Assembly (NCBI GenBank): GCA_947462335.1 | Contig: OX381721.1 | Span: forward strand, 5,084,001 to 5,148,000 | DNA: 64,000 nt | Source: Harmothoe impar | Taxonomy: Eukaryota > Annelida > Polychaeta > Phyllodocida > Polynoidae | Direction: 5' to 3' | Shown here: positions 9,784-53,137 of the stretch, in pieces | How the letters are laid out: each line of letters begins with the position of its first letter | Position numbering within the stretch: position 1 is the first letter of the stretch | The notes under the pieces: generated by a model | Told to the model about the DNA's origin: nothing | Database searches by the model: none | Seen by the model: only the letters and a program-made list of their open reading frames with translations | Program-made: the position numbers and the translations under genes

Positions 9784-9793
9784 TGAGTTGATG

Positions 9794-9815: not shown

Positions 9816-9867
9816 AGATATACACAATGATATAAAGTAAACAATTCTTATTAGGAACCCTTTCCAA

Positions 9868-12596: not shown

Positions 12597-12598
12597 TA

Positions 12599-13818: not shown

Positions 13819-13924
13819 ATTATCTTTAAGTTCAACAGAATTAGTATCTTTATTTTTCCCTGGAGTAATTTATTAATTTCATGCCAAAATTTCTTTGAAT
13901 CCCCATCAGCTTCATCTATTTTAT

Positions 13925-14149: not shown

Positions 14150-14399
14150 TTTCTCACCAATAAGTTGCTCATTATAGTTTTTGAGGCTCCGGGCTAATAT
14201 GGACTTTTTTCCCTTATGTGTTATTCTATCTCCCCTTTATTGCACTAACAATATTATGGTCACTTAGACTTATAGGCCTATTTGTTTATGAGAAATCACA
14301 ATCTTCATTTGTAAAGAGCACATCTAACAAAGCCGGGTTATCACTATGTCTTGTTGCCTTGGTTACCAGATTTTTCAAGCCATATCCTTTTAAACCAGC

Positions 14400-23665: not shown

Positions 23666-23666
23666 C

Positions 23667-33351: not shown

Positions 33352-34029
33352 GCGATGAATCGGGTAGTACGTTGAGTGTACGGTAGGAGCATTCCAGCTT
33401 GCTGGGGATTGGCCACCTGCTGGCAGTTGGTAGTTGCAAGGGCAGCTTGGGAAGTGTTTGTCCCCAGTACGGGCAGTTGGAGTTCAGCGTGGAGTTCAGT
33501 CAACAAATTGGCTGAATCGGTATGGTGTAGAAAGCTTCCATCACTGGGAAGTCAGGGTATCTCAACGACTGCTTGATAAAGCCCCATTGGGACCTGCGGT
33601 CTCCAGTGGGTGAGAATGCCTGGTGCTAGCTGCCTCTATACTCTGGGGGCTGGGACTCTCTGTAACTGCTTGATAAAGCCCCTTCTAGGAGGGAGAGAAA
33701 GCCCAGGGTTGGTAACCCCCCGGAAAATCCGAATCTAGAGGACATGATGGAAGCTGATGGGGGTAGTGTAGGGGTCGGATTCCCCGTACCCTGGTGGAGA
33801 GCCCGAAGGGGTAAAACACCTGGGTAATCCTCACCCTCTGTACCATACCGATCCAGTAACCTAGGGAGCGGAGAACAGTCAGACACGGGTTGGTAGTGTA
33901 ACGGTTAGCACGCTTGTCACCGGTGCGAGAGGTCTGTGGTTCGATTCCCAGCCGATCCAATGACTAAGTTTTCCGCGACCTCTACACTGGTGGATCGGCC
34001 GGTGGTTAGCACACTTATCAGAGTTCGGG
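33352..34029 (+). other. Gypsy leader without gag
   Basis: About 680 bp between the primer binding site and the RNase H remnant, where gag, protease and RT would be expected. 'actgcttgataaagcccc' occurs twice (33568 and 33666). A tRNA-like segment lies at 33888-33959 and a partial second one at about 33990-34030. No open frame with a retroviral motif is present, so the central genes were deleted or replaced. Confidence 0.6.
33888..33959 (+). ncRNA. tRNA-Asp-like segment (SINE-type remnant)
   Basis: An A-box-like stretch 'tagtgtaacggttagcac', 'cttgtcac' with a GTC anticodon context, and a B-box 'ggttcgattcc' lie in tRNA order, ending 'gccgatcca'. The T-arm stem is poorly paired and the acceptor 5' half does not match, so it is not a working tRNA. 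A tRNA-derived SINE head or a captured tRNA is likely. Confidence 0.4.
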
Positions 34030-34521
34030 TTGGAACAGAAGCAGATCCAACACCGACCCGGTGTAAAGCATGTAAATGCTGATGCACTGTCCCCCAGGCC
34101 CATAAGGAGTTGTGGGAATGAAAAATGTGACGATTGTGGAGCCCACGGGGCGGTCCTGGCTGGGGTCCGGTTGCCACTGGAATCCAGAGGAACTGGCATC
34201 CTTCAGTGGTCTATGGAGACTATCCGAAGGTTCCAGGAGAAGGATCCGAACATGGGGAGGTTGCTCGGGTTAATTCCTAAGGGAATCAAACCTGTTCCAC
34301 CTGAAATCTCTCTAGAAAATCGAGAGATGAGGAGATTTTTAGCACAATGGACAGAGCTGGAAGTATCCGAAGGTGTTCTATATAGATGGAAGATCAATCC
34401 TTCGGGAAGAAGGATCAGACAGGTAGTGATCCCCTCCGGTATGAGGAGGGATTTGATGTTTTATTGTCACGGTCATATGACCAGTGGTCACTTTGGGAAG
34501 AAACGTTCACTGGAACGCCTG
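34030..34521 (+). pseudogene. Gypsy RNase H tail and front of integrase
   Basis: 'IQHRPGVKHVNADALS' marks the end of RNase H in Gypsy pol. The His half of the H2C2 integrase zinc finger follows ('CHGHMTSGHFGKK'). The frame is cut at 34521, where the 17.3-kb element begins; residues after that are read from the element's inverted repeat. The second half of the zinc finger resumes at 51866 in a compatible frame. The ATG at 34030 is only the first Met available; the real coding region came from upstream. Confidence 0.85.
34516..34521. repeat. 6-bp target duplication of the 17.3-kb element, left
   Basis: CGCCTG here and TGCCTG at 51860-51865 flank the element, differing at one base. Collapsing them restores a continuous integrase frame, which supports this as the target site. 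Confidence 0.75.
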
Positions 34522-34730
34522 AGTAGTATATATTGTATCGGAACGGGACCATGCTTAAGTACTGTTTATTACTCACTCGATATGCAGCCAATCAGAGGCC
34601 GTCATTTGGTCACGTGACCCCCTCATTTGCATAATTACGTAATAGGCCACGCCCCCTTGATCACCAGCCAATCAGAGGCCGCCATTTGGTCACATGACCC
34701 CCTCATTTGCATAATAGGCCACGCCCCCTT
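34522..34730 (+). repeat. Left terminal inverted repeat with CCAAT/E-box/octamer units
   Basis: Matches the complement of 51660-51859 almost base for base over the first 80 bp, with close similarity after that. It is built of repeating modules: CCAATCAGAGGC (34588, 34668, then 34783), 'tttggtcacgtgacc', and ATTTGCAT (34625, 34705, then 34748, 34820, 34852, 34985). The module array runs past the TIR to about 35000. Confidence 0.88.
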
Positions 34731-34880
34731 GATTACGCGACCCTCTCATTTGCATAATAGGCCACGCCCCCTTGATCACCAGCCAATCAGAGGCTTCCAT
34801 TTGGTCACGTGACTCCCTCATTTGCATAATAATGGATCACGTGACCCCCTCATTTGCATAATAGGACCACACCCCCTTGG

Positions 34881-34926
34881 TCACGTGACCGGAAGCGCTC
34901 CTTATTTGGTCACGTGACCGGAAGCG
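34881..34926 (+). promoter_or_regulatory. Two E-box/ETS composite sites
   Basis: TCACGTGACCGGAAGCG occurs at 34881-34897 and 34910-34926. It joins an E-box (CACGTG) and an ETS core (CCGGAAG), a pairing common at animal housekeeping promoters. It lies directly inside the TIR modules. Confidence 0.55.
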
Positions 34927-35059
34927 CTCCTTATTTGGAAAATAGACCACACCCCCTTGGTCACGTGACCTGAACCCCTCCCTCATTTGCATAATATAGA
35001 TAATAGACAGACCACGCCCCCCTTTTGGTCACATGACCTGGACCAGCCAATGGGAGGCT

Positions 35060-35200
35060 TCTATGGGGGGGGGGGGAGGGGGAGGTGGGGAGGGGGGCAC
35101 TTTAAGATGCATGGGGAGGGGAGGGGGGGAGGGGGGCACTATTTTGGGGTGGGCGGGCACTTTGGGGGGCCTTTGGGGTCTGCTTCGGAGAAAAAAAATA
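35060..35200. repeat. G-rich tract with quadruplex potential
   Basis: Runs of up to 13 G with repeated 'gggaggggggcac' phrases. Many GGG tracts are close together, so G-quadruplex formation is likely on this strand. It lies between the TIR array and the nested LTR element. Confidence 0.7.
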
Positions 35201-35222
35201 ATTTTATCTGATCTCTAGGGAA

Positions 35223-35266
35223 TCGCCTCCTACCTATCCCCGTTTAGGGGGTAGGGAGGAGGCGAG
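35223..35266. repeat. Long imperfect hairpin
   Basis: 'cgcctcctaccta' pairs with 'gtagggaggaggcg' around 'tccccgtttaggggg'. It lies 14 bp left of the nested LTR element and belongs to the 17.3-kb element. Confidence 0.6.
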
Positions 35267-35276
35267 TCGGAGGTGA

Positions 35277-35280
35277 CTGT
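35277..35280. repeat. Nested LTR element target duplication (CTGT), left
   Basis: CTGT here and at 42893-42896 flanks the LTR element. Confidence 0.7.
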
Positions 35281-35902
35281 TGTCAGGTGACTGACATACT
35301 TAAAATGAACGGAAGACTCCATTTGATTATAGTTATGATATCTTTATTACAATTTGTATAACAGTAGTTCATAGGGTGAATATAATAATAATACAGTGAG
35401 AGTTGAGCAATCTATTGTGGCAGTGGATACATGCTGCACTTCTGTGCCATAATAATACTATTCTATGGGGAAACTATAGATACCTGTTTGTGATCATGTA
35501 ACTTCATGATTGTACTAGGGTTGCACTAGTACTGGCTGGGAATGCATACCTGGGACTGACTGCATGCTATTGTATATTGGTATGTGTATCTGGATACATC
35601 CAGTCTAACCCAGCCCATTCTGCCCAGAGGCTGGATGAGGCTGGACAGAACTGGACCCGACCAGAAGTTACTGGTGTGCCCTAAAATGGCTGAGACCAGA
35701 TAGGACTGGACAGGACTGGATAGGACTGGACAGTGCTGGTAGCTGCCAGTCTGCTCAGGTTGGAGCAGTCCCATCTATGTTGTTATTGTATGGAGTGCAC
35801 ATACCACTGGTATAGGATTACAAGTGTACTTTTAAAGCTTTTAATAATGATGAAAGTGGTTTACACATATTATCATATTATACAATCTATATACACCTGA
35901 CA
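35281..35902 (-). repeat. LTR of the young element (downstream copy)
   Basis: Identical by eye to 42271-42892. It contains a short tandem of 'ataggactggacaggactgg' words (about 35700-35730) and AATAAA on the minus strand at 35343-35348. Confidence 0.9.
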
Positions 35903-38900
35903 ATATCCCCCATTTAAGCATCCGACTCCGTTCGGATAAGTGTATGCAGCACAAATATTAATCAACCCCAAAAAAAGTATTGCTACAGGCATGAGAGTTG
36001 CCACCACTTATACCATATGACATAAGTACCTATGATACCATCATGAGCAGTCATACAATGTGAAACAACATGCAGCAAAGACGCCGTTTGAAGGGTGTAG
36101 ACATATTTTTTAACTATGAATTTGTTAATGCACTGAAAAGACCTCAGGAAGTCCTCATAGGTGGGTTGTCGATCAGATTATATGGTTATATTTGATCTTA
36201 TAGTGAGTATAGTCCACCATGAGCTATTGGAAACCCCATGAGGTACAAGTGCTAATACCGATGTATATTGGCATTGATATTGTTCCAAACCCTATATGAC
36301 GGGTTGGAATTCATAGTTAAAATCTGATATATACAGTAATCCTGCCATAACCCAAGAAACGGAAGTCATTGCTCCAGTACATGGCCCTATACAATGGGCT
36401 TACTTTCGGTGTAACTTGAGCCATGTTCTATGAACATGGGTCTGCATAACTGATGAGTATCACAGGCCTAAAATAATGGTCCACAGGTGCATACACTCAA
36501 ACCACCAGTCATACAAGGCTAATTATAGATTGGTGTGGCACACACCGTAAATAGATTGTGAATGTGAATTGGATACTTATGGGGAAATATCTCCTGTAAC
36601 TAGTTATAATTTGGAACATTGAAAGTGATTTAGGATGTGATTTCTTTTTTAGGTCCAGAAAAATATACTAATATGCTAGGTTTGTTGTTACTATGTAGCA
36701 CACATACACATATTGGGGTGCCACAAATGATATTAGCATGGGATATCACAAAAGAAAACGAATTACCCGGCTACTAACTGCCTGTCTATAATAATTACCA
36801 ATAAACTACTCATGCTCTCACTACTACCCTCCTACAAAAAGATGGTCACGTCAGCTATACATTATAATTAACCTTTTACATATAGCTATTAGACAATAAA
36901 ATCAGGTAATGAATACATGAATAATACATATGAATATATACACATGTTTGTATACGTATACAAGTACAGAGTTCATTATGATGCTTCAGCATTTTGATAT
37001 AGTGATAATATGAATGCATTAATGGTGTACATGACAGCTATTTCGTGTATTTAGTATTACAATAAGACACTGCTTCCTACAATCTCCAGAGTTTGTTTCA
37101 AACAGTGGAAAAACTGTTGTTCGAATTAATTTCATCAGCATAGACCTTTACGTGTTGTACTGATTAAACGCCAGAAGATTCTGACCATAAGTCCATCTCC
37201 ATTGGAGGATCCCTAACACAGTTCATAGGTGATCCATTGGTGAGGCTATAGAGGAGGTTGATTGTTGAATGTCGGATGGTACGATCAGACTGATAGAGTA
37301 TCGGTCATCTGTTGACACTGCACAGGCTCGGGTGCATCATAGGTTGATTTCTGAATGTGAAGCGTCTTGCCCTACAGAAGCTCCACATCTGAATTCTGTG
37401 CCGGGTGAACGGACTCGATATGCTTGTTGAGGTCATGCCCCCAGCACTCAAGCAAGGTCACTTAGTTAGGTTCATGGTGACTGGTTATCGTCTCCATCGT
37501 CATCCCTTTATAAACACAAATTGAGATAGATATAGGAGATGCAAATTTTACAGGGTAACATGCCTTTGATGCTAAACCTTGACTAAACCAAGCTCTATAA
37601 TTTACCACCTACCTGAATGAGCCATGCACTATAAAGAAACCAAAATTACACATAGCATACATACAATATGTTTTCTAAATAAAATCATATTAGTCCTATA
37701 CATAATAATACTAATACATGTTCCATGTAATATATGCACAATATATTGATACTACAACTACTGCGAATTCACCGTATCTACCATACTAATGATAACTGAG
37801 GGTTAAGTTGAACTGATAAAAATTATGCCATACAGTTTGTTGAACAGAACTTCTACCTCCGGTGAATTCCACTGAATTACTTGATATTATCAGACTCAAT
37901 TAGTCCATAACAAGATGAGATGTGTCACACTAGACGAGCCATACTGATGTTTAATTATAGACTGGGATTTAAAATTGATTATCTTAACACTATGCCTTAA
38001 ATTTAAAGCATGTTGTATAGGTGTTAGTGTGGCATGAAATTTTTGACATGTAAAACTGACAAATTTAGAGATCTCTCTGAGGATACTGTACATTATAATG
38101 TATTAACCATTTGCCAAAGTGATACAACAAAGGTATTTTATAAGTATATATATGGTTTTACATAAGAATTGAAAGCTGCTGATTTACATAATATGTTGTT
38201 GTTAAATAAAGTTGATAACACATATTGTGATCCTACTTGACCAAGGAACCTATAATATGAAATGAGATACCTAATGCTGTACTGCATGGAACTTTTAGCT
38301 TAGATATAAGGAATTAGTATATAACTATTGCATTGCATACATGACATGCTGGATAAAAGAAAAAAAAACAGTGTGTCCATAATGATTACAAGCTATTTTA
38401 AGTTGCAATGAGACTAAATTTGAATACGATTGAATGCTTCGTTCCACATTACAAATATGTTAAATAATACTTAGGAAACAGTTCTCTGGATAATGTCTGC
38501 ATATATGTTGGATATGTAATGTCTATACCAGTACAGAGGATGCCATTCTTAGAATAGGCTATGTCTAGACTGCAGAATGTTATGTGTAGACTGCAGGATG
38601 TTTATGTCTAGACTGCTGGTTGCTACGTCTAAAAAATGATATTTTCCACAACTTGCAATATTAGAAATTATGGATTTAAAGTGTGTCTGGCTAATTCTAG
38701 ATAACTGCTTAATAAAATGCTGTATGGGAAATGTATTCATATATTAAATTCCCTTTTTACAAATGCAAACAAGTGATACAATGTGCTTCATGGGTTGAAT
38801 CTCACATCTCGGTGGCAATGACCCAGAGGACAAAACCATCATATATATTTGTAAAAATTCATCATAGCTGCACATAGTAGGGAGGGGGTTATGGGCATGG

Positions 38901-40307
38901 GATTAGGGGGTCTTACTGCTTCATCTGGGCCACATATATGGCATGATGCCAAGCAATCAGGGGCTCAAAACTACAACATGGAGCAATATATAAAAGACAC
39001 AATCTAAACTGCCGGCTATCGCCCACACAAGGATTTGACCCCTCCAAATCGATTTTGCAAGTAAAAGGTTGACAAGTGGCATCAGGGAATGATGGTTGCC
39101 AAGGAATGACAATCCGACTATTTATGGTGTGCTAAGGTGTCGCTCTAAACAACTGCTGGGTAGTATGATAAGTGAGGAGTGGCTAATTCCCCATAACTGT
39201 AAACCCATCGCTAAGGATTGCAGATGTTTCACAATTAAAAGGTTATTGTTGTGGTTTGCCACTTGGCCAGGTAGCATTCCTCTATATATTGGAGGTCTGT
39301 TAACCATAACCTCCGTTTTAGGTTAATAAAATATTGTTATATGAGGCTAATATGCAATTAACTTAATACAATATATCATATATGTGCCACCCTCATCCTG
39401 ACAGTCACGCATCTGTATGAATGAGGTCCCTTGATTAAAAGCAGAAGAGAAAGATTTATTTCAGTCTTTAATGCAACCATGAATGCAGTTAGGTGATAGG
39501 ACTTTATCATAGCTACCATCCAATATGGGTTTATCCAGATCTGTGAGGCAGCCCCAACCATTATAGCTCCCTACTAGTCTTGCTAGTTCTATATGAATAG
39601 TGACACTTTTGGCCTAATGGCATGCCATAACAGATGTGGAAAGAGTCAATGTCCCAGAATGCACATGTGTATAATTATGTGACTTTTAAGAAAAAAAATC
39701 GTACAAATATAGCAAACTTATAGCAGTACTGCTATTTGGTTTTGACACGTAAATGTAATATATGTTGTGCAACCAGCCAGGTGATATTCTCAAAAGTAAC
39801 TGGTAAATTCATTACTAACCAAATCACTTTTAAAATGTGGGCCTTGATATGGCTAATTTTTTTTTTTTTACATGATAATTAGTTGGATCTTACTTTTATT
39901 ACCATACACAATATAACCACTAAACTATAAACCTAAACTATCAACCTAAACTCAAATGCCAGATTGTGGCAGAAATGGCTTTCCATAAAGGATTGGTTCT
40001 GGGGATATGGGTGGTCTGACAGACAGTGTTTTGATACGGAGAGGTATTGTATTTCGTACTTTGGACTGCACTGATTAGAACTGCTCAGTAGCTACCCATG
40101 ACCTGTGTGAGTCTATATTATGTATCTAACATGGATCTGATGAATACAGGCTATGGCTTGTTTAAAGTGGCATTCTCACTGAGCAAATCCCACTCCCAGA
40201 TCTACTAGTACTGTTCTAGTCTAATATGTGGTTAAGTGTGAGTGGTGAGAATGACCCTCTAAATTTGTAAAAGTTTTATTTGTAATGTACATATATACAT
40301 AAAGTAT
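35903..40307 (-). other. Non-coding interior of the young LTR element
   Basis: About 4.4 kb downstream of the 502-aa ORF, AT-rich, with no open frame above 80 codons. A less AT-rich pocket (about 37150-37500) stands out but has no recognisable protein. A MITE lies at 40161-40263. Since the LTRs are identical, this lack of coding is original and not the result of decay. Confidence 0.65.
40161..40263. mobile_element. Miniature palindromic element, copy 2
   Basis: Starts TTTAAAGTGGCATTCTCACT and ends in a near-complement (GAGAATGACCCTCTAAA). Related to 3507-3605. It rides inside the young LTR element just after its ORF. Confidence 0.6.
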
Positions 40308-41816
40308 TTACAATGACATGCCATGCTGGTCTGGTTCTGCTATTGGTACAGACTGGTTTCCATAGTCTATTTTACCTCTGTCTCTTGGGCCCTTGTAAGT
40401 TAATGGCACTAGATTGTTGGTATTGTTGTTATACTTTATCATTGAGATGCCCTTTTTTCTTGCTCTTTTGCCTCTGCTATATGATAGTTTCTTTCTCCTA
40501 TTCAAAGAGTGACTTCCCTCTCTATTACAATGAGCCTTTCTCCTTGACTTTTTAGCACCTATCTTTTTGAATTTACCTTTACGCCTTTTGTTTTGTGAAC
40601 CATATTTAACATTGAATAGTAATATATTAGACTTGTGGACATTTTGCACTATTATTGAGCTCTGTGTATAGATATGTAAAGGGTTGGTTATGTTCTTTTC
40701 TATATCAAAATGTAAGGGGGTTTCTTGTATTTCTTGCTGTTGGTCTAATGATTCTAGGTGGTGTGGTTGTAGTTGTGGCTCTGGAAGCTCTACATTAGTT
40801 GGGCATGGTTGTGGGTCTATAGGCTCTACGTTTGTTAGGCCTGGCTGTGGGTCTAAAAGCTCTACTTCTTCCTCTATGTCTGAGTATTCTGAAGATGTTT
40901 CCCACTCATCTGAGTCTGAGCATTCTGAGGATGTTTCCCAATCATCAGAGTCATAAATTTCTTCTGCAGTATAGTTAGCAGTGGTAATTATGTTATCTTC
41001 TGATTTTTTATGTTCTTTGAAGTTCAGTTTATCCTGATCTTTTCTGAGATTACTAAATGTGCCTACTTTGTATTGTGGGTTATTATTCTCTGGATCTGGG
41101 TCTTCTTGGGGAAACTGACTAAGATATACCTCTTCAGGGTCTCCATCTGAATCCGAATCTGTATCTGATTTAGGAAACTGATTTAGATATACCTCTTCAG
41201 GATCTTCATCTGTGTCTGATTGTTCTGAATCTGTATCCCAGTTATGAAAATATAATGTATATCCTCGCGTTACTGGGGCTGTTGGGGCAAGGACTGTGGT
41301 ATGGTTAATTTTAGTTTGTGATGAGTAACGGAAACTATCTGTGTTAGGCAGATAACCATTAACTTGGTTTCCATTAATATTGTATGTGCATGTATTGGTT
41401 GGGTGATTATTTCTGCTCTGTATCTCTCTCAAATATACCAGATATTCTTTGCAACAGGTCACTGATAAAGTTAAGAACTCATATATAATGCCCTTTAAGT
41501 GATTGTTTCTGGCAAAGTCATAATTATCATCCTGAGAACTCAAAAATTCATGACTTTTGGGGATTTCATCAGTTTTGATCACTTTATCATAGGCACAGTG
41601 CAATATATAATACAAATGCCTAAATCCCTCTTCTCTTAGCCTGTAATAATATTTGTCAAGATCTTCAGACAACTGAGCTAGATTACCAATGAAAGTAGTT
41701 TCCACATCTATGTCCTCTGCTACTGCTAATATACGCAACAAACTTTCACTACATAGCTGAAATTGCCGAAAAAGTAAAATTGCATCCTCCACTGTAGACA
41801 CTGTAGACACATTCAT
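40308..41816 (-). CDS. 502-aa gag-like protein of the young LTR element
   Basis: Not recognised as a known family. Layout: an N-terminal part of about 140 residues that looks helical and is rich in Leu, Tyr and Cys; a linker with PTAP at 178-181; an acidic, Ser-rich middle with internal repeats ('DPEEVYLNQFP' 205-215 and 226-236; 'DSDDWETSSECS' 289-300 and 301-312; 'DPQPGLTNVEP' 322-332 and 334-344); and a strongly basic segment at 409-456. First position after the primer site, a PTAP late-domain-type motif and a basic nucleic-acid-binding tail all suit Gag. No zinc knuckle is present. The ORF is intact and about 455 nt inside the element, so it is probably expressed. An accessory protein is the main alternative. 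Confidence 0.6.
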   Translation of the reverse strand: MNVSTVSTVEDAILLFRQFQLCSESLLRILAVAEDIDVETTFIGNLAQLSEDLDKYYYRLREEGFRHLYYILHCAYDKVIKTDEIPKSHEFLSSQDDNYDFARNNHLKGIIYEFLTLSVTCCKEYLVYLREIQSRNNHPTNTCTYNINGNQVNGYLPNTDSFRYSSQTKINHTTVLAPTAPVTRGYTLYFHNWDTDSEQSDTDEDPEEVYLNQFPKSDTDSDSDGDPEEVYLSQFPQEDPDPENNNPQYKVGTFSNLRKDQDKLNFKEHKKSEDNIITTANYTAEEIYDSDDWETSSECSDSDEWETSSEYSDIEEEVELLDPQPGLTNVEPIDPQPCPTNVELPEPQLQPHHLESLDQQQEIQETPLHFDIEKNITNPLHIYTQSSIIVQNVHKSNILLFNVKYGSQNKRRKGKFKKIGAKKSRRKAHCNREGSHSLNRRKKLSYSRGKRARKKGISMIKYNNNTNNLVPLTYKGPRDRGKIDYGNQSVPIAEPDQHGMSL

Positions 41817-42270
41817 GCTTTCTGCTTTAGATCATGAGATCCATACATTAAATAAGAGTAGGTCATTAGGAGTCTATTTGCTTAAACTCTATAAAGCTTG
41901 CAATTATTTGGGTAAAGCAGTCCCCTTTGAGAATTGTTAATACATTCTGAAAGTAAATGGGGTTGTTAATGAATGCAATACATTATACTATACTTAGCTT
42001 TATGATGGTGCCTCCATGGGATAACTGTATACATCGGTGGTGTCAGGCTGCATCCCCAATGTTGTGGTGCTGCCTTATCTGTTGTTTGGAGTCCCGTTGA
42101 TAATACTTTGTCTCTCCTGGATTGTCCTGTTTAACGTTACTGCTTGTTACTGTAGGGAGGCCCTATTCAATCTATTTAATTTCAGTTTTGTGCTATTAAG
42201 TTGTATCAAGTACCATTTCAAGAATTGCTCAATTTTTTAGTAAACAAGGATCAAGCCGTTCTCCACCAAA

Positions 42271-42892
42271 TGTCAGGTGACTGACATACTTAAAATGAAC
42301 GGAAGACTCCATTTGATTATAGTTATGATATCTTTATTACAATTTGTATAACAGTAGTTCATAGGGTGAATATAATAATAATACAGTGAGAGTTGAGCAA
42401 TCTATTGTGGCAGTGGATACATGCTGCACTTCTGTGCCATAATAATACTATTCTATGGGGAAACTATAGATACCTGTTTGTGATCATGTAACTTCATGAT
42501 TGTACTAGGGTTGCACTAGTACTGGCTGGGAATGCATACCTGGGACTGACTGCATGCTATTGTATATTGGTATGTGTATCTGGATACATCCAGTCTAACC
42601 CAGCCCATTCTGCCCAGAGGCTGGATGAGGCTGGACAGAACTGGACCCGACCAGAAGTTACTGGTGTGCCCTAAAATGGCTGAGACCAGATAGGACTGGA
42701 CAGGACTGGATAGGACTGGACAGTGCTGGTAGCTGCCAGTCTGCTCAGGTTGGAGCAGTCCCATCTATGTTGTTATTGTATGGAGTGCACATACCACTGG
42801 TATAGGATTACAAGTGTACTTTTAAAGCTTTTAATAATGATGAAAGTGGTTTACACATATTATCATATTATACAATCTATATACACCTGACA
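42271..42892 (-). repeat. LTR of the young element (upstream copy)
   Basis: Exactly 6990 bp from its partner and identical where compared. As the upstream LTR of a minus-strand element it should drive the 502-aa ORF. Confidence 0.9.
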
Positions 42893-42896
42893 CTGT

Positions 42897-43436
42897 AGAG
42901 GAGTTTTTCGGTGACTTGATGACCTTCAAACGACCATACTGATAGTTAATAAATTTGACTTTTGACTTGAATATTCTTGCGACTTTGCGACCTGTAAGCG
43001 AAAGCGAAAGCGACTTTGCGACTTGTAGCCCTTAAAAGAGGTGACTTTGTAACCTCAGGGGGGAGACCTTTCTACACTCCCACGGAGGAGGAAGGATCTC
43101 GGTTGATTGACTGTACTTTGACTTGTTGTTGTAAACAAAAAAAAATCTATGAATAGAACGACCCCCTTATTGCTAACAAAGGAACGACTTTGAATTACAC
43201 AAAATGAGACTACCCTCTTTTGTAGGGGGTTAGTGGTAACTCAACTTAAATTAGAGTATTAGGGAGAGCGCACGTAAACAACAAAACGCGACTACACGCC
43301 GTCTTAGACTGTCTTACGGACCGGATAACAATAACCATAGTTACCTTGGTTACTGTAGATGACGCGTAATGAGCAACGTCGTCAAAATTAAGCTGGCGTC
43401 AGCGGTCGGCTAGCCAGACAGTTTTTTTTTGTCAAA
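42897..43436. other. Right arm of the 17.3-kb element, proximal part
   Basis: CpG-rich relative to the window. A 'gcgaaagcgaaagcgac' run (about 43000) and 'gcgacttt' words repeat. It looks like upstream sequence for the small ORF at 43437. Confidence 0.4.
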
Positions 43437-43538
43437 ATGACCGGAGCAGGTTACGTTGCAGTCGCTCAAGAGACGGTGATGGATCTGGTCATGAGGATAC
43501 TGAAAGAAGGTCTACCTAGAACCACCGCGCTGGTTTGA
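43437..43538 (+). CDS. 33-aa ORF ending in a hairpin
   Basis: The ATG follows a T run and 'gtcaaa'. The product is mostly hydrophobic with a few charges ('TVMDLVMRILKEGLPRT'). No family is recognised. The stop codon sits in the loop of a perfect 6-bp hairpin (CCGCGC/GCGCGG, 43525-43544), and a second nested hairpin follows at 43556-43588 (CATGGG..CCCATG outside GGACCC..GGGTCC). It resembles the coding remnant at 45851 in being short, CpG-rich and followed by stem-loops. It may be the last exon or a remnant of a longer gene. Confidence 0.35.
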   Translation: MTGAGYVAVAQETVMDLVMRILKEGLPRTTALV

Positions 43539-43599
43539 GCGCGGGTATCAGTCATCATGGGACCCTTGACGGGTGGGTCCTCCCCATGCAGCCGTATGT

Positions 43600-44280
43600 C
43601 GAATTTAAGAAATGTCCATGTCACATGGCACTAAGGGGGAAACATTTTTGAAATATTTAGAACCCAAATTGAGCATTCTGGTACATTTTAGGGACCCAGA
43701 CACTGCAAAGCCGGGTACCATCCAAGAATTTTTTTTTTTTTTTTGCAAAATGTTTAGGCTTGAAATGGAACTTTTCTGATGCACTCTTCGAACATTTTTT
43801 CTCATTTCACTATGGTCCATGTCACATGTCGGACTTAAGAAATGTCCCATGTCCCATGTCACTTAGATGACCGTGCCCCATGTTGATTTTTTTAAGATAT
43901 GACCGTGTCGTCGTATCAAATTTAAGAAAATGACCATGTCACCATATCGAATTTAGGGGTCTAGGGACATCAACATGTCCGGCTATCCTCCACAAATTTA
44001 GCTCTAAAATTTTTATTTTTTGGGCTGATTTCTCATCATTTTTAAAAAACAATAGGATGTTGAAATGTTTGCTGTTGTAAATGGAAACAAAACAAAACAA
44101 GTGCATGGTTAGATTATGTCACATTGTAGTCGCGGGTCCACTTGTGGCTTATCCAGCCTCTTTGTGGATCCACAACTGACAATGTGTCATATACTAATCA
44201 CCTGGCGTTTACGGTATTATATACTAAGGTATGAGACAGTCCCCACAGGAAAGGTGTCTAAAAGCGCTGTGACCTGATTA
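43600..44280. repeat. Diverged 'gaccatgtcacatgtc' repeat region
   Basis: 'aatttaagaaatgtcc' and 'accatgtcac' words recur between 43600 and 43980, resembling the interiors of the MITEs at 46374 and 47561. Probably an older element of the same kind. No gene. Confidence 0.4.
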
Positions 44281-44283
44281 AAA

Positions 44284-44291
44284 TGACGTCA
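44284..44291. promoter_or_regulatory. CRE palindrome TGACGTCA
   Basis: A perfect CREB/ATF site. A second is at 45807-45814, 37 bp before the coding remnant at 45851. Confidence 0.5.
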
Positions 44292-44299
44292 GCGGCGTC

Positions 44300-45800
44300 T
44301 GCTCATCAGCGCCCAGCTGTAGGACATGACATCCTGCTTTGCTGGAGGTTTTGAAATATTTTGATTTAACTGATAATACCTGATAACAAGCCTCTGAAGC
44401 AGTTTGATCGATTCTCCGGTGTATTGCATTACAAATATGTGTTCCAAGACACAGACGGATAGTCATCGCAAGGTCATAGGGTCCGTATCCGGCCCTAGTA
44501 TACTTAAGGTTGGTATACACGGCACGTCTTCAGTAGACTAGACAAGACAAAACATGAGCAGACAAATATCCGGTGACGTTTTGTCTTGGTCTCGTCTTGT
44601 CTGCTGGACATGATACACGGCTCATCATCCAGACCTGTCTGCTGAAGTCTTTAGTGAAAATCCTAGTGTAAAAAGAATTCTATCCCTATAGTAAGTAGGA
44701 CAGTGGACAGTGGGATGATTGTCACAAGACCATGAGAGCTACCCTTATTGGCTGAGTAGCTCACAACATGTCGTGGGCAGTCTGGAGCTGGGTAATGTGA
44801 CATACATAGCTTACAATCCGATTTTTGACCCGTCCCAGTACGTGTTCTCTACTTTCCATTGATTTATAGCTGCTTCAGCAAATCGCGCGGTCTAGATGAC
44901 GGAGGAGCTAAAGCTCTGTCTAGAGAGTGGAACTTGACTATAGACTCAGTACTAACTGAACGCCCGGTTAGTAAACTCCGTTCACCCCTCATGTGGGTAT
45001 ATGTACAACTTCAGGTTCTTCACTTTACGGCTTGACTAAAACTGAGACACATCCATTATAAACTCTAGGATTCTTTTCTAGGATCGAGAGATTTTAAATG
45101 GGGCGGTAATCTAAATAGCGTGGAACTAAATCAGGCTGCGGCAGAGAGTATCTCTGCGCACCTCAAGACTCAACGTAGCTTTCACTCTCCAGCAGAGGTT
45201 TAGTTGTCACTAACTATGGGTGGCGACCATTATCCACCGGAGGATATTGGAGAGTGTTGGAGAGCTGAAGCCTACAGAGATATAAATCAATCGCTCTGGT
45301 GGAGACAACTGTCGGAAAATATCTCGCCATAGATTGGAACCAAATACTTATCTAATGGAATCGTTATCAGTTTCAGTTTTCTTGCCGTACAAATTTATTC
45401 CCACTCTTCACGTGGTGATAGCTGAAGGTTACTCGTCGTAGGTACGTGTGACCAGAACACACTTTTTTTCCTTTTTGTTTTGGCGCGGGTTGACAGATTG
45501 TACCGTACTGTCGCGATTAAGTGCTCTGAGGGAGCGCTTTTCAATTCGGTGAAGTTCTTACTCAGGAGCTTATACAAACCAGGCGTTAGCACTTATTCAA
45601 GGTCGCGATTTTAGTGCTTAAGAAAAAACATTTGGAGGCTCTTATACTCCAGCGCTTATTCAAGACCGGCGCACTTTCAACACTAGTTGCTTTATCGCGA
45701 CCATACGGTATGACTGCGGTGTCACAAGTTCCCAAACTCCAAATAAGGAAGTAAAACGACGTCGCCTGCCTGCCTCATGAGCGTCATAGCGTCGTCGAAA
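44300..45800. other. Right arm, central unassigned part
   Basis: 44500-44650 has inverted words ('gacaagacaaaac' against 'gttttgtcttg') suggesting a foldback element. 45480-45690 has 'gcgcttattcaag'-type repeats, also MITE-like. No coding signal. Confidence 0.4.
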
Positions 45801-45806
45801 ATAGTG

Positions 45807-45814
45807 TGACGTCA
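45807..45814. promoter_or_regulatory. CRE palindrome upstream of coding remnant
   Basis: TGACGTCA, 37 bp before the ATG at 45851. Position and perfection suggest a promoter element. Confidence 0.5.
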
Positions 45815-45850
45815 GCTCATCTCAGGCGGTTAGGAAGTCAGTTTGACGAA

Positions 45851-46113
45851 ATGGCTCAACGAGTGAACTTCGTGGTCGTTTCTCGATCTATGATCGAGGG
45901 GGCCGTGGAGAAAGAATTGCAGCCGCACTACAGAGAGAAGAGGTAGAGAGGCAGCGTGCTGCTGCGGAGGAGGGTGTGGCGGATGAGTTGATGACGGAGG
46001 TCGCGGATCAACTCATCCGGCAGTCCGTCGAACAGGCCAAGCAGCAGGTCTGCAGGGAGGAAGGCCTACCGCCCGCCATCCTGGAGATGCTGAAGGACTA
46101 CGACGTGATATGA
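45851..46113 (+). pseudogene. Small CpG-rich coding remnant followed by a histone-type stem-loop
   Basis: An ATG at 45851 opens a 31-codon frame that stops at 45944. The neighbouring frame, open from 45847, runs to a stop at 46111-46113 and has convincing coding character: a charged helical stretch ('ALQREEVERQRAAAEEG', 'LIRQSVEQAKQQVCREEG') ending 'LEMLKDYDVI'. The simplest reading is one gene of about 87 codons with a single frameshift. No family is recognised, and there is no histone fold. The histone-like 3' stem-loop begins 31 nt after the stop, a normal distance for such mRNAs. Confidence 0.5.
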
Positions 46114-46144
46114 CTACCACCACACCCTCCGCCTCATCACTAAC

Positions 46145-46160
46145 GGTCCTTTTTAGGACC
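46145..46160 (+). terminator. Histone mRNA-type 3' stem-loop
   Basis: GGTCCTTTTTAGGACC fits the metazoan replication-dependent histone consensus (GGYYYT HHTH ARRRCC) at every position: 6-bp stem, 4-nt loop, with 'aac' before and 'acc' after, as in true sites. It lies 31 nt after a stop codon. No clear purine-rich downstream element (GAAAGA type) was seen, so processing by the U7 snRNP is unproven. Confidence 0.65.
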
Positions 46161-46373
46161 ACCCGCGGCGTGTGTGTATCATGTTGTATGATGGTATCAT
46201 GATGAATGTGACGTCGTATCAGGTCTTATCATGAGGGGAAGGGGTGAGGCCGAACAAAAAAAACAAAAAGAGAAAAAAAAGTTGTGTTCCGGTAACCCGA
46301 CCGACCCTATCATTTTGGCCCGACCCTAATCTTTTTAAAATTTTTTTTTTTTAGATTCTCCCTTATGTAGAGG

Positions 46374-46611
46374 GGCCCCCAGACGGGTAAAATCGACATA
46401 TCGACATGACCCTAGTGACAAGGGACAAGACCTATTCCTTAGAATCGACAAGTGACATGGGTATTCCTTAGAATCGACAAGTGACATGAGGCGTAGTGAC
46501 ATTTTTATAGTGTCAGTGACAAGGGACAAACCACTTTTCTTAAAAATCGACAAGGGACATAGCCATTTCTTAAAATCGCCAAGTGACACAGCATCCCCCC
46601 GTCTAGGGGCC
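46374..46611. mobile_element. 238-bp MITE (GGCCCC.AGACGGG termini), copy 1
   Basis: Starts GGCCCCCAGACGGG and ends CCCGTCTAGGGGCC. 'tatgtag' flanks both ends, giving a duplication of about 8 bp. The interior repeats 'cgacaagtgacatg' words. No coding capacity. Confidence 0.75.
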
Positions 46612-47560
46612 TATGTAGGGTTTCACCAAAAGGGCTTAAAACATACATAATGACCTTCAGCTATCTCAATTCTTATCCTTTGAAAAAGCCTAGAAGGGTG
46701 GGAAAATTCTTTGTATGTAAAAACAGAACTGATAAGGGTTTTTAATTAGACAGATATTGGTTCTACACTATCAAAAATAACCACTCAGTAAAAAAAGATT
46801 TGTGGTAACCCTGAGTCAATAAAGGAGAGAGAAACATTATAGAGATATATTTTTCCTCTGTCTATAGAACTGGTTCGGGCTCAATTCTATAATACTATAA
46901 AGTTGTACTCAATAAACCCTCCCAGAATAACACACAGTTATCGCCCTCTATTTTTGAGTTACTGCCTATTCTCCAAGCACAGACTTGGCCCGCTCATAGT
47001 TCTGGTTGATCTCTCTCAGCAGCGCACGTGGGTGTCTATGCTCGGAGAAGGGTTACCGCCCCTATGTTTGCAGCTAGAAACTTCTCCTGTTCAGGACTGT
47101 TCCATGTGTCAGTCATAACAGTTGATGTAGCCTATTATCTTAAGACTAAGAAACAACCTAAGTTGTTTCTCATCACTAAGCGGTGAAAAAATATGACGAG
47201 AGCGTTTTTTTTTGTTGTTTTTTACTTGGGGCTAAAATACATGGGGAAATTTGGAATTTTCGCGATCAATTTTCACGTTTCAGTAATTCGGAAAAAAGTT
47301 GTTATAATGCAAGTTATTCCTAGCTGACTGCATTACTGACAGCATAAGCTTTTAATTTGATACCAAAATTTGCCGCCTAGTGTGACTCGTTCTTTTCTGT
47401 ACATTATTAAAATTACGTATCTTGTTTCAAATACTCCAAACACATTGCGTATTACCCCATCTCAATCTACCTCCCAAATTCCTAGATCCACACATGCAAC
47501 ATTTGAAGGAGGTTTGGTACAACATATAAGCTGCAAGTTATACACAGGGATTAATAATAA

Positions 47561-47775
47561 GGCCCCAGACGGGTAAAATAGACAAGTCAACAATGTCCTG
47601 TTTTAGCCAATATGGACAAAGAGACACGGGGGTGCTGGGAGTTGGCGACAAGGGGCAAGACGGGCAAGACTACTTCTCAAAATAGACAATGGCCAAGACC
47701 TAGTTCTTAAATTCGACAAGGACCATTGGCATCTCTTATATTCGACAAGTGACACATGTACCCCGTCTGTGGTCC
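47561..47775. mobile_element. 215-bp MITE, copy 2
   Basis: Starts GGCCCCAGACGGGTAAAAT and ends CCCCGTCTGTGGTCC, with the same 'gacaagggcaagac' interior as copy 1. The flanking duplication is unclear ('taataataa' against 'taatatag'). Confidence 0.65.
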
Positions 47776-48033
47776 TAATATAGATTTTCTAAAGTAAATT
47801 TTCTGCACCATGTGACAACGACCGATCAGCTAGATAGCAGAGATTTCCCCAACCTATTTGGTTATTTTTCTATTCAGTTTTTGATCAGCGCTCTATATTA
47901 TCGTGTTTTTTTTAATTTTTATTCATAAATAGACTTGGAAAAAAAAGAAAAAAAAAAGAGAGCTGACACACAAACTCCGACTCTCCCCCCTCCTACTCCC
48001 ATGTCACTGTTTTGTCACTAAACCCAAAGACCC

Positions 48034-48260
48034 GCCCACCCCGTAGGAAGGGGTGACGTTTGTGAACGTTCCCTTAGTCTTCTATTCTTTATTTATTGTG
48101 TGGCCCCTAAAGAGGGGCCAACCAACTCTGATTGAGTTGGTTATATGCTGCGCAACATCGGCGTAATTAATTACGCCTCATGTTAAGCAGCATGGATCAC
48201 TCTAACAGACTGGCCTCAAAAGCCCCGTTGGACGGGGGGCCTGTGGCACTGTCAACAACG
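48034..48260. other. Hairpin cluster
   Basis: Consecutive perfect or near-perfect stem-loops: CACCCC/GGGGTG (about 48036); TGGCCCCT/AGGGGCCA, 8 bp, loop AAAG (48101-48120); AACCAACTC/GAGTTGGTT, 9 bp, loop TGATT (48120-48142); a nested palindrome ATGCTGC..ACAT..GGCGTAATTAATTACGCC..ATGT..GCAGCAT (48145-48193); and CCCCGT/ACGGGG inside GGCC/GGCC (about 48213-48249). There is no open frame. The density argues for a structured RNA, a replication or packaging site, or a processing region. Confidence 0.65.
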
Positions 48261-49140
48261 AGTTGATCTGTTTGTCCGATTACCGACTCGGTGAGAGGTT
48301 CTGACTATGTATATCTTTTATAACGCCTTAGATATGGTGTGGTATTTTTCATCTCGCTATAGTTTAGTTGATATTTAAAAGAAACTGTCTCATTCTATCA
48401 GAAATACACAATATTGAATTGTTTTTTTATATTTAATATATTTTAAAAGCGCGCTTTGTTGCCTATATAGCTCATTATGCATTAAAATGTTTGTGAGCAT
48501 CGTAGGAATGTACAAAATTCCTATTGTGGGGCCATCTGACGAAAGAGCGGGGAACTATACTAGCGCGTTCTATTCGCATCTTTGACAGCGACTAAGAGAC
48601 GCTCAAACTGTCTCTTATTTACTTTGAACTTATCACAAAATTGTCTTTGATAGGTCGTAGATTGACTTCTGACTTTTTTTTCTTTTTTTTTAGTTAGAAT
48701 AAAAAAACAACCAAAAAAAACAGTGACGCCGACACAGACCTGCACATTAACGCGCTCCACCGTCTTCAGAGGGTTAAGTCTATAGTACAGTAGATTTTAC
48801 TGTGTACTTACACTAACAGTGCTACATATACATACCTCAGTTCTAAGTGGTTTTTTTTTTAGAAAAAATAAAGTGATCTACTCACCCATTTTTTATTTAG
48901 ACAAACCGCTATTAGTAGGTAACCAGTATAAACCATACCGCAAACATCTGCCTCGTGACTGGTAGTGTACCAGAAGAAAAGGTGGGCGGTGGTGAAGTGC
49001 TGTTGCAAGAATAATTGAGGCTCTTTATAGAGCTGAGAGAGCGAATGTCCTAATCTTGTTTTCACCTTGAGCCCCACCCTCTTCCAGAGAGGAAATCAAA
49101 ATCGCATGTACATGTATATGGGCTTATAGCTGCTGAATAG
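48261..49140. other. Right arm, unassigned AT-rich part
   Basis: No gene or repeat recognised beyond homopolymer runs. Confidence 0.4.
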
Positions 49141-49880
49141 ATAAGGCGGGACAACTGTGTATACAAAGACTACAGGGGGTGTTTTAACGACAGGTGTGAC
49201 GCGCCAGCCCGTGGACAGAGCTTTTGTTTTCACCTAGAGAGGGGATCAAGAGTGTATACAAAGCCTACAGGGGGTGATTAACGCGGCCGGATGACTGCAT
49301 GTTTTGTTCTAAGCCTGTTTTGTTTTCAGCTCGATCCCCCACCCTCTTCTAGATCCTTTCCACCCTTAAATCAATCTGATAATTGTCATAAAGGGGGTAA
49401 TGCGCATTACACATGTATATAGGATTATAGCTGGGTAAGAGATTAAGACGTTCAAACTGTGTATACAAAAAAAAAGCCTACAGGGGGTGTTTAAGGCCGG
49501 GTGTCATGCACCGGTGAAGAGACTGTGTATACAAAGACTACAGGGGGTGATTAACGACAGGTGTGACGCGCCAGCCCGTGGACGGATGACTGCATCTTCT
49601 AAGCTTTGTTTTCACCTAGAGAGGGGGTCAAGAGTGTATACAAAGCCTACAGGGGGTGTTTAACGCGGCCGGATGACTGCATGTTATGTTCTAAGCCTGT
49701 TTTCAGCTAGAGAGAGGGACCTAATCACCTAGGCCCTTTCCACCCTTAAATCAATCTGATAATTGTCATGAAGGGAGTAATGCGTATTACATGTATATAG
49801 GATTATAGCTGGGTAAGAGATTAAGACGTTCAACTGTGTATACAAAAAAAAAGCCTACAGGGGGTGTTTAAGGCCGGATG
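49141..49880. repeat. Interspersed 'gtgtatacaaagactacagg' repeat array
   Basis: The core GTGTATACAAA..CTACAGGGGGTG occurs about six times (near 49155, 49252, 49448, 49508, 49636, 49836), each followed by versions of 'gacaggtgtgacgcgccagc' or 'cggccggatgactgcatg'. The units are 60-200 bp long and of at least two types arranged in a higher order. It ends about 300 bp before the Ala-rich ORF and may be its upstream control region. Confidence 0.65.
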
Positions 49881-50189
49881 TCTGCCACTCTAGCTGTGAC
49901 TGCAAGCGCGTGCGTGTGGTAGACAGCTTAAATCAAACAAGTTAAGCTCCTTATAGCTTCCTACTGACTGCGGATTCGAGTCCTTGAAAGATGGTCTTTT
50001 GTTTTTTCATCTATTTCCTCAGGGAGTCGAACAGAATTAAAGATGTAACGAACCCGCACCTACACAGATAGACAGCCGGTCGCCTTCCTAGTGAGAGTTT
50101 TTTTCATGAGTTAAGAGGCTTATCTCGGAGCCTAGTACATAAGCGAGAGTGAAACATCGATCCCACACACTTCTTCTACCACCTTCAGC

Positions 50190-50957
50190 ATGGCGTCATC
50201 GGGAATCACTCTACGTTCTACCAAATGTGAGCATCCCAACACTACTACAGAGCAGCGACAACACCACACGGAGGAGACGACCATGGTTACTGATGAGTTA
50301 ACAAGTAGCAACGTCGAGGTTCGTTTTTATCAAGATTCGTACGGGTGGCTGGATAGTGTGAGGGCTACTTCTGCAGCTGTTACTGCTGCTCGTGCAAGAC
50401 CTGAAGCTCTTACCGCCGTTCGTGCTACACATACTGCATACGAAGTCGCTAATGCTGCTAACAACGCTGCTGTTACTCTCGCCACTGCTGCTCGTGCTGC
50501 TAATGTTCTTGCTACTGTTACCGCTCTTGCTGCCGATGCTGCTGCTGCTGATGCTGCAGCGACTGCTAACAGTGTCGCTGTTGCAGCTGCTGCTAGGGCT
50601 AGTGCTTTTAATGCTTGTACAGCTGCTAAAAACATAGCCTGTTTCGCTGATACTAGTCGCAATGTCGCTGTTGCTGCTATTGCTGATGCACATGATGCTA
50701 AGTTACGGGCTGTTGCTTTTGCTGATGTTGCTGTTGATGCTAATAGAGTTGCTCAGAGCACTGCTACTGCTGCTGAAGATGCTGCTGCTGCTGCTGCTGC
50801 TGAAGATGCTGCTGCTGCTGCTGCTCTAGACACCTATGACGCTGCTGCTGCTGCTGAAGATGCTGCTGCTGCTGCTGCTCTAGACACCTATGACGCTGCT
50901 GCTGCTGCTGCTGCTGAAGATGCTGCTGCTGCTGCTGCTCTAGACACCTATGACTAA
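50190..50957 (+). CDS. Ala-rich repeat protein (255 aa)
   Basis: Starts at an ATG in good context after 'ccttcagc'. The first 55 residues are ordinary ('ITLRSTKCEHPNTTTEQRQH'); about residues 56-200 are Ala-rich with scattered charged and polar residues, suggesting one long helix; the tail repeats 'AAEDAAAAAAA' and ends each repeat in 'LDTYD'. The tail comes from GCT-triplet expansion, which continues beyond the stop for 560 bp. The non-repeat head and the degenerate codons through residue 200 favour real coding over a pure microsatellite artefact. No family is recognised. Confidence 0.5.
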   Translation: MASSGITLRSTKCEHPNTTTEQRQHHTEETTMVTDELTSSNVEVRFYQDSYGWLDSVRATSAAVTAARARPEALTAVRATHTAYEVANAANNAAVTLATAARAANVLATVTALAADAAAADAAATANSVAVAAAARASAFNACTAAKNIACFADTSRNVAVAAIADAHDAKLRAVAFADVAVDANRVAQSTATAAEDAAAAAAAEDAAAAAALDTYDAAAAAEDAAAAAALDTYDAAAAAAAEDAAAAAALDTYD

Positions 50958-50979
50958 ACTTAGTAGGTGTTATTTACAA

Positions 50980-51104
50980 ACAAGAAAGCCACGTGGTGTT
51001 GTTTACAAACAAAGAGAGCCACGTGGTGTCGTTGTGGCTTATTATGCAAATGAAGAGGTCGCGTGACCACGGGCTGTTGCTTTTGCTGTTGATGCTGCTC
51101 CTGC

Positions 51105-51136
<32 letters not shown>

Positions 51137-51268
51137 AAGATGCTGCTCCTGCTGCGACTGCTGCTGAAGATGTTGCTCCTGCTGCTACTGCTGCTGAAGA
51201 TGCTGCTGCTGCTGCTACTGCTGCTGAAGATGTTGCTCCTGCTGCTACTGCTGCTGCTGCTGCTGAAG

Positions 51269-51305
<37 letters not shown>

Positions 51306-51660
51306 AGACACCTATGACTAAACTTAGTTGGTGTTGTTTACAACCAAAGAGAGCCACGTGCTGTTGTTGTGGCTTATTATGCAAATGAAGAGGCCACGTG
51401 ACCACGGGCTGCTGCTGTTGCTGCTGCTGCTGAAGATGCGGCTCCTGCTGCTACTGCTGCTGAAGATGTTGCTCCTGCTGCCACTGCTGCTGAAGATGCT
51501 GCTGCTGCTGCTGCTGCCTATGACTAAACTTAGTAGGTGTTATTTACAAACAAGAGAGCCGTGTGGTGTTGTTTTCAAGCAAAGAGAGCCACGTGGTGAT
51601 GTTTACAAACAAAGAGAGCCACGTGATGTTGTTGTGGCTTATCATGCAAATGCACGTGAT
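50980..51660. repeat. Subterminal cassettes with GCT repeats, E-boxes and octamers
   Basis: Three cassettes, each with 'ctagacacctatgactaaac', 'gtttacaaacaaagagagcc', CACGTG sites, 'ggcttattatgcaaatgaag' (octamer) and a GCT/CTG triplet run. Octamers are at 51044, 51379 and 51644. The last triplet run fades before the right TIR. The open frames in both strands here are triplet-repeat artefacts. Confidence 0.75.
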
Positions 51661-51859
51661 CAAATGGAAGCTTATTATGCAAATGAGGGGGTCACGTGAC
51701 CAAATGGAAGCCTCTGATTGGCTGGTGATCAAGGGGGCATGGCCTATTATGCAAATGAGGGGGTCACGTGACCAAATGGCGGCCTCTGATTGGCTGCATA
51801 TCGAGTGAGTAATAAACAGTACTTAAGCATGGTCCCGTTCCGATACAATATATACTACT
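51660..51859 (-). repeat. Right terminal inverted repeat
   Basis: Inverted counterpart of 34522-34730, with octamers at 51677 and 51749, inverted CCAAT boxes at 51717 and 51789, and CACGTG sites. It ends ...TATATACTACT. Confidence 0.88.
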
Positions 51860-51865
51860 TGCCTG
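51860..51865. repeat. 6-bp target duplication of the 17.3-kb element, right
   Basis: TGCCTG, matching CGCCTG at 34516-34521 except at the first base. Confidence 0.75.
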
Positions 51866-53137
51866 TCCCGAAGGTACTACTGGCCAGGAATGAGCACTGA
51901 CTTATTACGTTGGATCGCCACTTGTCCCGATTGCTGCAAGAATAAACCCGGCCCTGGGATGGGTAAAATGCCCTTGTCCCAGGAACTGTTCGGAGTTAGG
52001 TTTGCTAGAATAGCAATGGACATCATCAGTGGTTTTAAAACAACCCCTGATGGTAACACGTGTATGATGGTAGTAACCGACTACTATACTAAGTACACAA
52101 GGGTGTTCCCCTTACCCGATCACAAAGCCGCGACTTGTGCGAAGGCCTTTGTGAAGGGTTGGGTATTACACCTAGGAGTGCCTCTGATGATGCATAGTGA
52201 CCAAGGCCGGGAATTTGAGTCGGATCTATGGCAAGAGATGTGCCATAGGTTAGCAATCTGTAAGACCCGAACCAATCCCTACCGACCCCAGAGTGATGGG
52301 ATGGTGGAAAGGTTCAACAGAACGCTAATTCAGGTTCTGAAACCCTTGGTGAATGAAAGTATGACAGATTGGGATGAACAATGTGAATATGTATGCCATG
52401 CATACAACAGCACTGTTCATAAAAGCACCAGTTGCACCCCAAACTTATTAGTGTTTGGGGATGACATGATCATGCCAGCCGATCTTGTTTTAGGGGTGGT
52501 CTGGTTGAATCCCGACGCACCATGTCACGTGATGTTTGTGGAATCACTAAGAGACCAGTTTAAATTCGCATATGAACTTGTTAGAACTGAGTTAAAAAAG
52601 AAGGCGAAATGGCAGAAAACTGGTTATGACCATGGACTAAAAGTCCGTGGGTTCAAGGTAGGGGATCAAGTAGTGAGACTACACAAACCTCTATCCAATT
52701 TAAAATTGGCAAGCAACTGGGATGGTCCATTTGTGGTGACTAGAGTAGCAAGTGACTGTACTGTCATGATTAGATCCTTAAATGGGCGGATCTATAAATC
52801 CAACTTGGCTCGGCTCCGTCCCTGGAAGGGGAGGGATCTGACCACAGAAACGTATGGGTTAGGAGTAGATGAATTACTCCAGAAAGTAAATAGCAGGAAG
52901 ATGGATCAAATAACCCTGAAACGTGGCCGAGGAAGGCCTAGGAAGTTAGCGGTCCGTGATCGGAAGGTGCAGAAGAAGGAAAAAGTCTCGCTAGCTGTAA
53001 GCAAACCTAGGCGGAAGAGAAAGGAGACGGCTAACCCTGCCTCTGAAAAGGCGCCTTCGGGAGCTAGGTCAAAGAAAATACCCATGGGAGGTACCCGACG
53101 CAGTCCCCGCCTGATAGAAAGGGCTGCGGTAACCTAA
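51866..53137 (+). pseudogene. Gypsy integrase, rear part
   Basis: Inserts the retroelement cDNA into host DNA. Numbered from the Met at 51890: Cys pair of the H2C2 finger C12/C15, catalytic triad D44, D104 and E140 with exactly 35 residues between the last two (D,D35E), a GPF motif at 279-281 in the C-terminal domain, and an AT-hook-like 'RGRGRPRK' at 345-352 within a basic tail. The catalytic core is intact to the stop at 53137. The front of the protein, with the two zinc-binding His residues, is 17.3 kb away at 34030-34521. The ATG at 51890 is internal to the original frame, so the piece is probably not functional. Confidence 0.9.

Follow-up and report, generated by a model that had tools for sequence, protein, structure and literature searches.

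A DNA element with Maverick-type termini, and a long terminal repeat retroelement nested within it, in a Gypsy integrase gene of Harmothoe impar

A composite insertion in a Gypsy integrase gene

The window analysed here, a 64,000-nucleotide stretch of the genome of the polynoid annelid Harmothoe impar (GenBank assembly GCA_947462335.1, contig OX381721.1; here G000:C21:5084001-5148000, in a genome of 1.51 Gb in 736 contigs), contains a 17.3-kb insertion (34522–51859) within an integrase gene of the Gypsy type. Two mobile elements make up this insertion, one inside the other. The outer is a member of a repeat family, probably of Maverick/Polinton affiliation, whose copies carry a small gene with signs of conservation, and the inner is a long terminal repeat (LTR) retroelement.

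The outer boundaries are defined by terminal inverted repeats (TIRs) of 114 nt that differ at a single position, the left arm (34522–34635, plus strand) starting with AGTAGTATATATTG and the right arm (51746–51859, minus strand) having ACTACT as its last letters. These are flanked by a 6-bp target-site duplication, CGCCTG on the left (34516–34521) and TGCCTG on the right (51860–51865), in which five of the six letters agree. On either side lie the halves of the host integrase, a left open reading frame (ORF) at 33964–34521 (plus strand) that matches positions 1–35 of the H2C2 profile PF17921, and a right ORF at 51866–53137 (plus strand) that matches positions 30–58 of the same profile and, in addition, the rve domain. 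A Pfam scan of both ORFs thus places the insertion within the H2C2 zinc-binding domain, which it cuts in two, and by codon arithmetic the two parts of the Gypsy frame join without a shift, with a codon ending at 34521 on the left and another starting at 51866 on the right. An initial annotation of this DNA had proposed inverted ends starting with AGTAGT, the 6-bp duplication and the interruption of a Gypsy integrase, and all three are borne out. No Rfam family scored above its gathering threshold over 34000–52500.

The interior of the insertion is not of one piece. A segment of 7,612 bp (35281–42892, minus strand) is an LTR retroelement, distinct from the DNA element that surrounds it and missing from sister copies of the latter. 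Its two LTRs, of 622 bp each (35281–35902 and 42271–42892, both minus strand, the 3' and 5' LTR, respectively, if the element is read on that strand), are 100% identical, start with TGTCAGG and end with CCTGACA (TG...CA), and the element is flanked on either side by the duplication CTGT (35277–35280 and 42893–42896). The identity of the LTRs suggests that this insertion is young. On the minus strand, TTTGGTGGAGAACGGC follows one LTR and AAATGGGGGATAT precedes the other, candidates for a primer site and a purine tract, respectively, as judged by eye. In all 14 sister copies with the junction read (a set of eight sisters, L029, L030, and L036–L039), base 759 of the element is joined to approximately base 8371, skipping 35281–42892; the copy on C7 shows a local duplication of element sequence between these two bases.

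The nested LTR element appears to be non-autonomous, its three interior ORFs of at least 80 aa having no Pfam match to a reverse transcriptase or an integrase. One of its ORFs, of 502 aa (40308–41816, minus strand), is possibly Gag-like by position only, and neither Pfam, nor PDB, nor a homolog search at E ≤ 0.001 among 5826 word-sharing candidates returned a match. Since it sits within the nested element, this ORF was rejected as cargo of the DNA element. Likewise, the initial view of the 17.3 kb as a single unit has to be abandoned, and with it the use of size as an argument for a Maverick, since 7.6 kb belong to the nested retroelement; without these the host DNA element measures ~9.7 kb. 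The locus is a clean example of two nested mobile elements mistaken for one.

The repeat family and its small coiled-coil gene

The ends of the DNA element are highly repetitive. The 38-bp tip of the TIR, with up to three mismatches, occurs 476 times in the forward and 486 times in the reverse orientation (962 genome-wide), compared to 0+0 for the reversed control sequence. Among 100 of these 962 places that were listed, all of them exact matches, 20 pairs of adjacent tips face each other at distances of 6,227–13,976 bp (median 10,142 bp), most of which were not read. A genome query with the left 601 bases of the element returned 42 matches (40 of 2198 candidates scored), the window first and the others 87–97% identical. 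All six sisters read at both ends keep the same boundaries and carry a perfect 6-bp duplication, at lengths of 6.2–10.7 kb, and differing boundaries were not seen: these are the copies on C13 (10,026 bp, TACGGT), C12 (6,227 bp, CCCATC) and C7 (10,673 bp, CTCCAC), one on C4 that sits within a further copy (9,508 bp, TAGGGG), and the copies L029 (9,500 bp, CGGATG) and L030 (9,777 bp, GACATG). Right ends of the C20 and C11 copies and of two outer copies on C4 were not identified in the stretches read, and the C11 copy has a left tip differing from those of other copies.

At least three subfamilies can be distinguished, namely A, to which the window copy belongs, B (the C4-nested copy, L029 and L030) and C (L036–L039), the last being ~84–90% identical in most of the longer pieces. 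In the sister copies read, the component pieces and their order do not differ between subfamilies A, B and C. The family also inserts into itself, as seen on C4 where a subfamily-B copy flanked by TAGGGG lies inside a subfamily-A copy (L024–L025, 34796–44303 of their concatenation), and L038 is shortened by the end of another copy. An insertion within the subfamily-C copy L036 holds a 313-aa ORF (L036:2645-3586), presumably a tyrosine recombinase of the Crypton- or DIRS-like kind.

A single likely gene was recognised in the family, and it encodes a putative coiled-coil protein of 87 aa. Its window copy (45851–46113, plus strand) is divided between two frames, and it is intact in sisters, the C13 copy (L027:5158-5418) serving as the intact reference. 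A protein search yielded a sole homolog, P0001 (source ENA), which aligns along its full length, over 88 residues, with 57% identity and 81% similarity and is the strongest evidence for the gene. P0001 in turn identified 150 scored copies in the genome (of 2024 candidates, identities 52–64%), of which 139 are free of stops, bearing in mind that the best-scored copies are favoured by design. For 33 of the 42 left-end matches, a number that includes two secondary matches to copies counted before, a copy of the gene lies 1–15 kb downstream on the same strand. Between subfamilies, the ratio of non-synonymous to synonymous differences per site (pN/pS) is 0.46 for A–B, 0.42 for A–C and 0.40 for B–C in a set of 17 copies with open frames, L032–L035 being assigned to subfamily A by default. 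In a smaller A–B comparison the ratio was 0.45 in frame and 0.94–1.14 in four other frames, with 0.49 in one antisense frame. An AlphaFold model of P0001, computed from the single sequence, predicts a long helix (residues 12–70) followed by a short one (76–84), at a mean predicted local distance difference test score (pLDDT) of 78.6 and a predicted template modelling score (pTM) of 0.31. On this evidence the 87-aa frame seems to be a real gene kept working in relatives of the window copy, and its apparent constraint, in an element where mobility genes were not recognised, suggests that it serves the element as a helper.

In two subfamily-C copies (L036:4532-4909 and L037:4500-4952) the 87-aa gene remains open in spite of an internal duplication of ~30 residues. 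Four copies on C12 (G000:C12:5633011, 5637898, 5642784 and 5647665) follow each other on the same strand ~4.88 kb apart, which probably reflects tandem repetition of one portion of the element. An ORF at 43437 thought similar to the 87-aa protein had no tblastn match to it, and the one weak match of P0001 among viral contigs (L031, 37% over 49 residues) was judged to be due to chance.

The remaining features concern the ends of the element. Motifs resembling CCAAT boxes, E-boxes and octamers form an array in and behind the left TIR (34585–35058, plus strand), mirrored at the right end (51041–51796, minus strand) by octamer-, E-box- and CCAAT-like motifs; these may be sites of the Oct, USF and NF-Y type. 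The initial annotation had pointed to these arrays, and their counts are indeed far above chance: ATTTGCATAAT occurs 10 times in the window against 0.15 expected, GGTCACGTGAC (at most one mismatch, near-palindromic sites being scored on both strands) 26 times against 0.40, 24 of these within the element, and CAGCCAATCAGAGGC (at most two mismatches) 6 times in the window against 0.07, none of the three counts being reached in 100 shuffles. Close to the right array is an Ala-rich ORF of 255 aa ending in GCT repeats (50190–50957, plus strand), the coding status of which is doubtful. In 12 copies chosen by script for having this ORF open, its pN/pS between subfamilies was 1.4–1.7 over codons 1–185 and 0.62–1.15 over codons 1–60. 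Minus-strand frames in this region are open as well, and no homolog appeared among 8000 candidates scored. With no sign of constraint, the ORF was not accepted as coding. What had initially been described as a cargo that could not be placed is mostly the nested LTR element together with non-coding DNA common to the copies read, the 87-aa gene, which looks real, and the doubtful Ala-rich ORF.

Probable affiliation with Mavericks and competing explanations

The case for a Maverick affiliation is built on the termini. According to PMC8097293, the termini met most often in vertebrate Mavericks are (AGT)2//(ACT)2 accompanied by a 6-bp duplication, and intact members measure 12,723–24,620 bp with TIRs of 46–1,447 bp. 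The window element and the six sisters with both ends read carry AGTAGT...ACTACT, the first of the two Maverick end types (AGT)2//(ACT)2 and (AG)3//(CT)3, and the 6-bp duplication agrees as well, so that the original Maverick/Polinton call is supported as far as it was drawn from the ends. Size points the other way, the 9.7 kb of the window element and the 6.2–10.7 kb of its sisters falling below the 12.7–24.6 kb of intact Mavericks, and among the 20 facing pairs listed (6.2–14.0 kb) a single one exceeds 12.7 kb.

Gene content was examined by a Pfam scan of 15 of the 24 stop-to-stop ORFs of at least 80 aa, 13 from the element and two from the host Gypsy. Core Maverick genes (PolB, integrase, ATPase, protease and capsid) had no match above the cut-off in the 13 element ORFs, where the matches below it were to MRP-S26 (E 0.016) and DUF3293 (E 0.074). 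A genome search with PF03175, the profile of protein-primed-type polymerases, listed no PolB within the window from 83 of 695 candidates scored. The absence of core genes asserted in the initial annotation therefore holds for the ORFs scanned and for PolB as listed, with nine ORFs of at least 80 aa lying outside the scan. The same 83 candidates gave 129 PF03175 stretches elsewhere in the genome, with open frames of up to 1567 aa, compared to zero matches in 14 control genomes.

Taken together, we consider it likely that the window holds, within a Gypsy integrase gene, a copy of a large family of non-autonomous DNA elements of ~10 kb with Maverick/Polinton-type termini, and that this family is mobilised in trans. 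An apparently non-autonomous LTR retroelement inserted into the copy at a later time, nearly doubling its size. The boundaries, the target duplications, the existence of the family, the nesting and a small gene with signs of conservation are established. The family may move because its ends are recognised by the integrase and the protein-primed polymerase of autonomous Mavericks in the same genome. The motif arrays beside the TIRs may serve in expression or recruit factors of the host. As for the 87-aa coiled-coil protein, it may be the element's own helper, with a part in, for instance, its replication, its packaging or its transcription.

Several observations weigh against this explanation. 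The PolB loci are putative Mavericks, judged by their polymerase family. None of 68 such loci lies within 30 kb of the 100 listed TIR tips (of 962 in total), the nearest being 125 kb away, and the 150 copies of the 87-aa gene and 40 left ends compared likewise had none within 25 kb. Upstream of one PolB gene the TIR was not seen over 2.1 kb, a stretch that may stop short of the element end, and the 100 of 962 tips compared did not reveal an autonomous element, whatever its superfamily, that shares these TIRs. A non-autonomous Maverick is therefore a reading of the evidence and not a membership established by a shared TIR. As to the 87-aa gene, pN/pS within subfamilies is 0.48 for A and 0.36 for B but 1.35 for C, the 17 copies had been chosen for open frames of more than 80 aa, and the fixed differences between A and B (6 synonymous and 10 non-synonymous) are not significant (p = 0.19).

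The lack of a PolB neighbour at the listed places, together with the lack of a Maverick gene in the scanned element ORFs, would also fit non-autonomous elements from a different superfamily of DNA transposons in which 6 bp are duplicated, such as an IS3EU- or Dada-like one, with Maverick-like ends acquired by convergence. The size of ~10 kb, smaller than the 12.7–24.6 kb of intact vertebrate Mavericks (PMC8097293), is in line with this possibility. However, the exact (AGT)2//(ACT)2 ends and 6-bp duplication match the signature published for Mavericks (PMC8097293), and the genome does contain polymerase genes of the Maverick type whose open frames are long. We regard such an origin as unlikely. 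Far less probable still is an autonomous Maverick that decayed or suffered deletion in the window copy only. The Maverick ends and the one broken gene in this copy would suit such a history, but it is contradicted by the sisters of subfamilies A, B and C, which share their pieces and the order of these and in which no Maverick-sized gene set was seen.

A different possibility is that the family is a Maverick satellite whose own 87-aa protein would hijack the replication or particle formation of Mavericks, by analogy with virophages and phage satellites. In its favour, a family that has Maverick ends and TIR tips by the hundred, and in which no Maverick gene was found, carries a small, conserved coiled-coil gene. 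Against it, the gene may be vestigial or regulatory, and no autonomous element sharing the TIR emerged from the tips compared. We rate the satellite as doubtful, slightly more so than convergence from another superfamily, and it overlaps with the preferred explanation of a non-autonomous Maverick-ended family, since both invoke mobilisation in trans. Counting that overlap, there is a small chance that these hundreds of gene-poor Maverick-ended elements exploit autonomous Mavericks through the 87-aa gene, which was not seen near the 68 PolB loci compared.

Surrounding sequence and comparison with known systems

Outside the insertion, the window contains an unbroken 450-aa sulfotransferase ORF (8557–9906, minus strand; PF00685, E 4.8e-13). 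An RVT_1 ORF with a GIY-YIG ORF behind it (22196–24134, plus strand) belongs to what we take to be a Penelope-like element, and an RVT_1 ORF with a sub-threshold Exo_endo_phos ORF (12565–14957, minus strand) is probably a long interspersed nuclear element (LINE).

Descriptions of large non-autonomous families with Maverick ends seem to be scarce in the open literature searched, and none was found there of a family that carries a conserved gene itself, most subscription journals and Repbase being outside this coverage. Mavericks are suspected viruses, and it would be logical to look next for satellites of theirs. What keeps the present locus of interest is mainly that a family with Maverick ends and hundreds of TIR tips, in which no mobility gene was found, has the 87-aa gene. 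The letter 'N' in Polinton names marks a non-autonomous family. Such a kind of Polinton appears to exist, as the zebrafish element Polinton-1N1_DR is named in PMC9341505, and its likeness to the family described here, that of a Polinton family without autonomy, is judged by that name alone. The nested element, for its part, resembles the large retrotransposon derivatives and non-autonomous LTR elements covered by PMC6431247 in having two LTRs, a long interior and no reverse transcriptase found, and differs from them in retaining a 502-aa ORF with no recognised relative. With the vertebrate Mavericks/Polintons described in PMC8097293, the outer element shares its AGTAGT//ACTACT ends, a 6-bp duplication and a TIR length inside the range of 46–1447 bp; in contrast to their 12.7–24.6 kb it measures ~10 kb, no core gene was found in the ORFs scanned, and the family carries an additional 87-aa gene.

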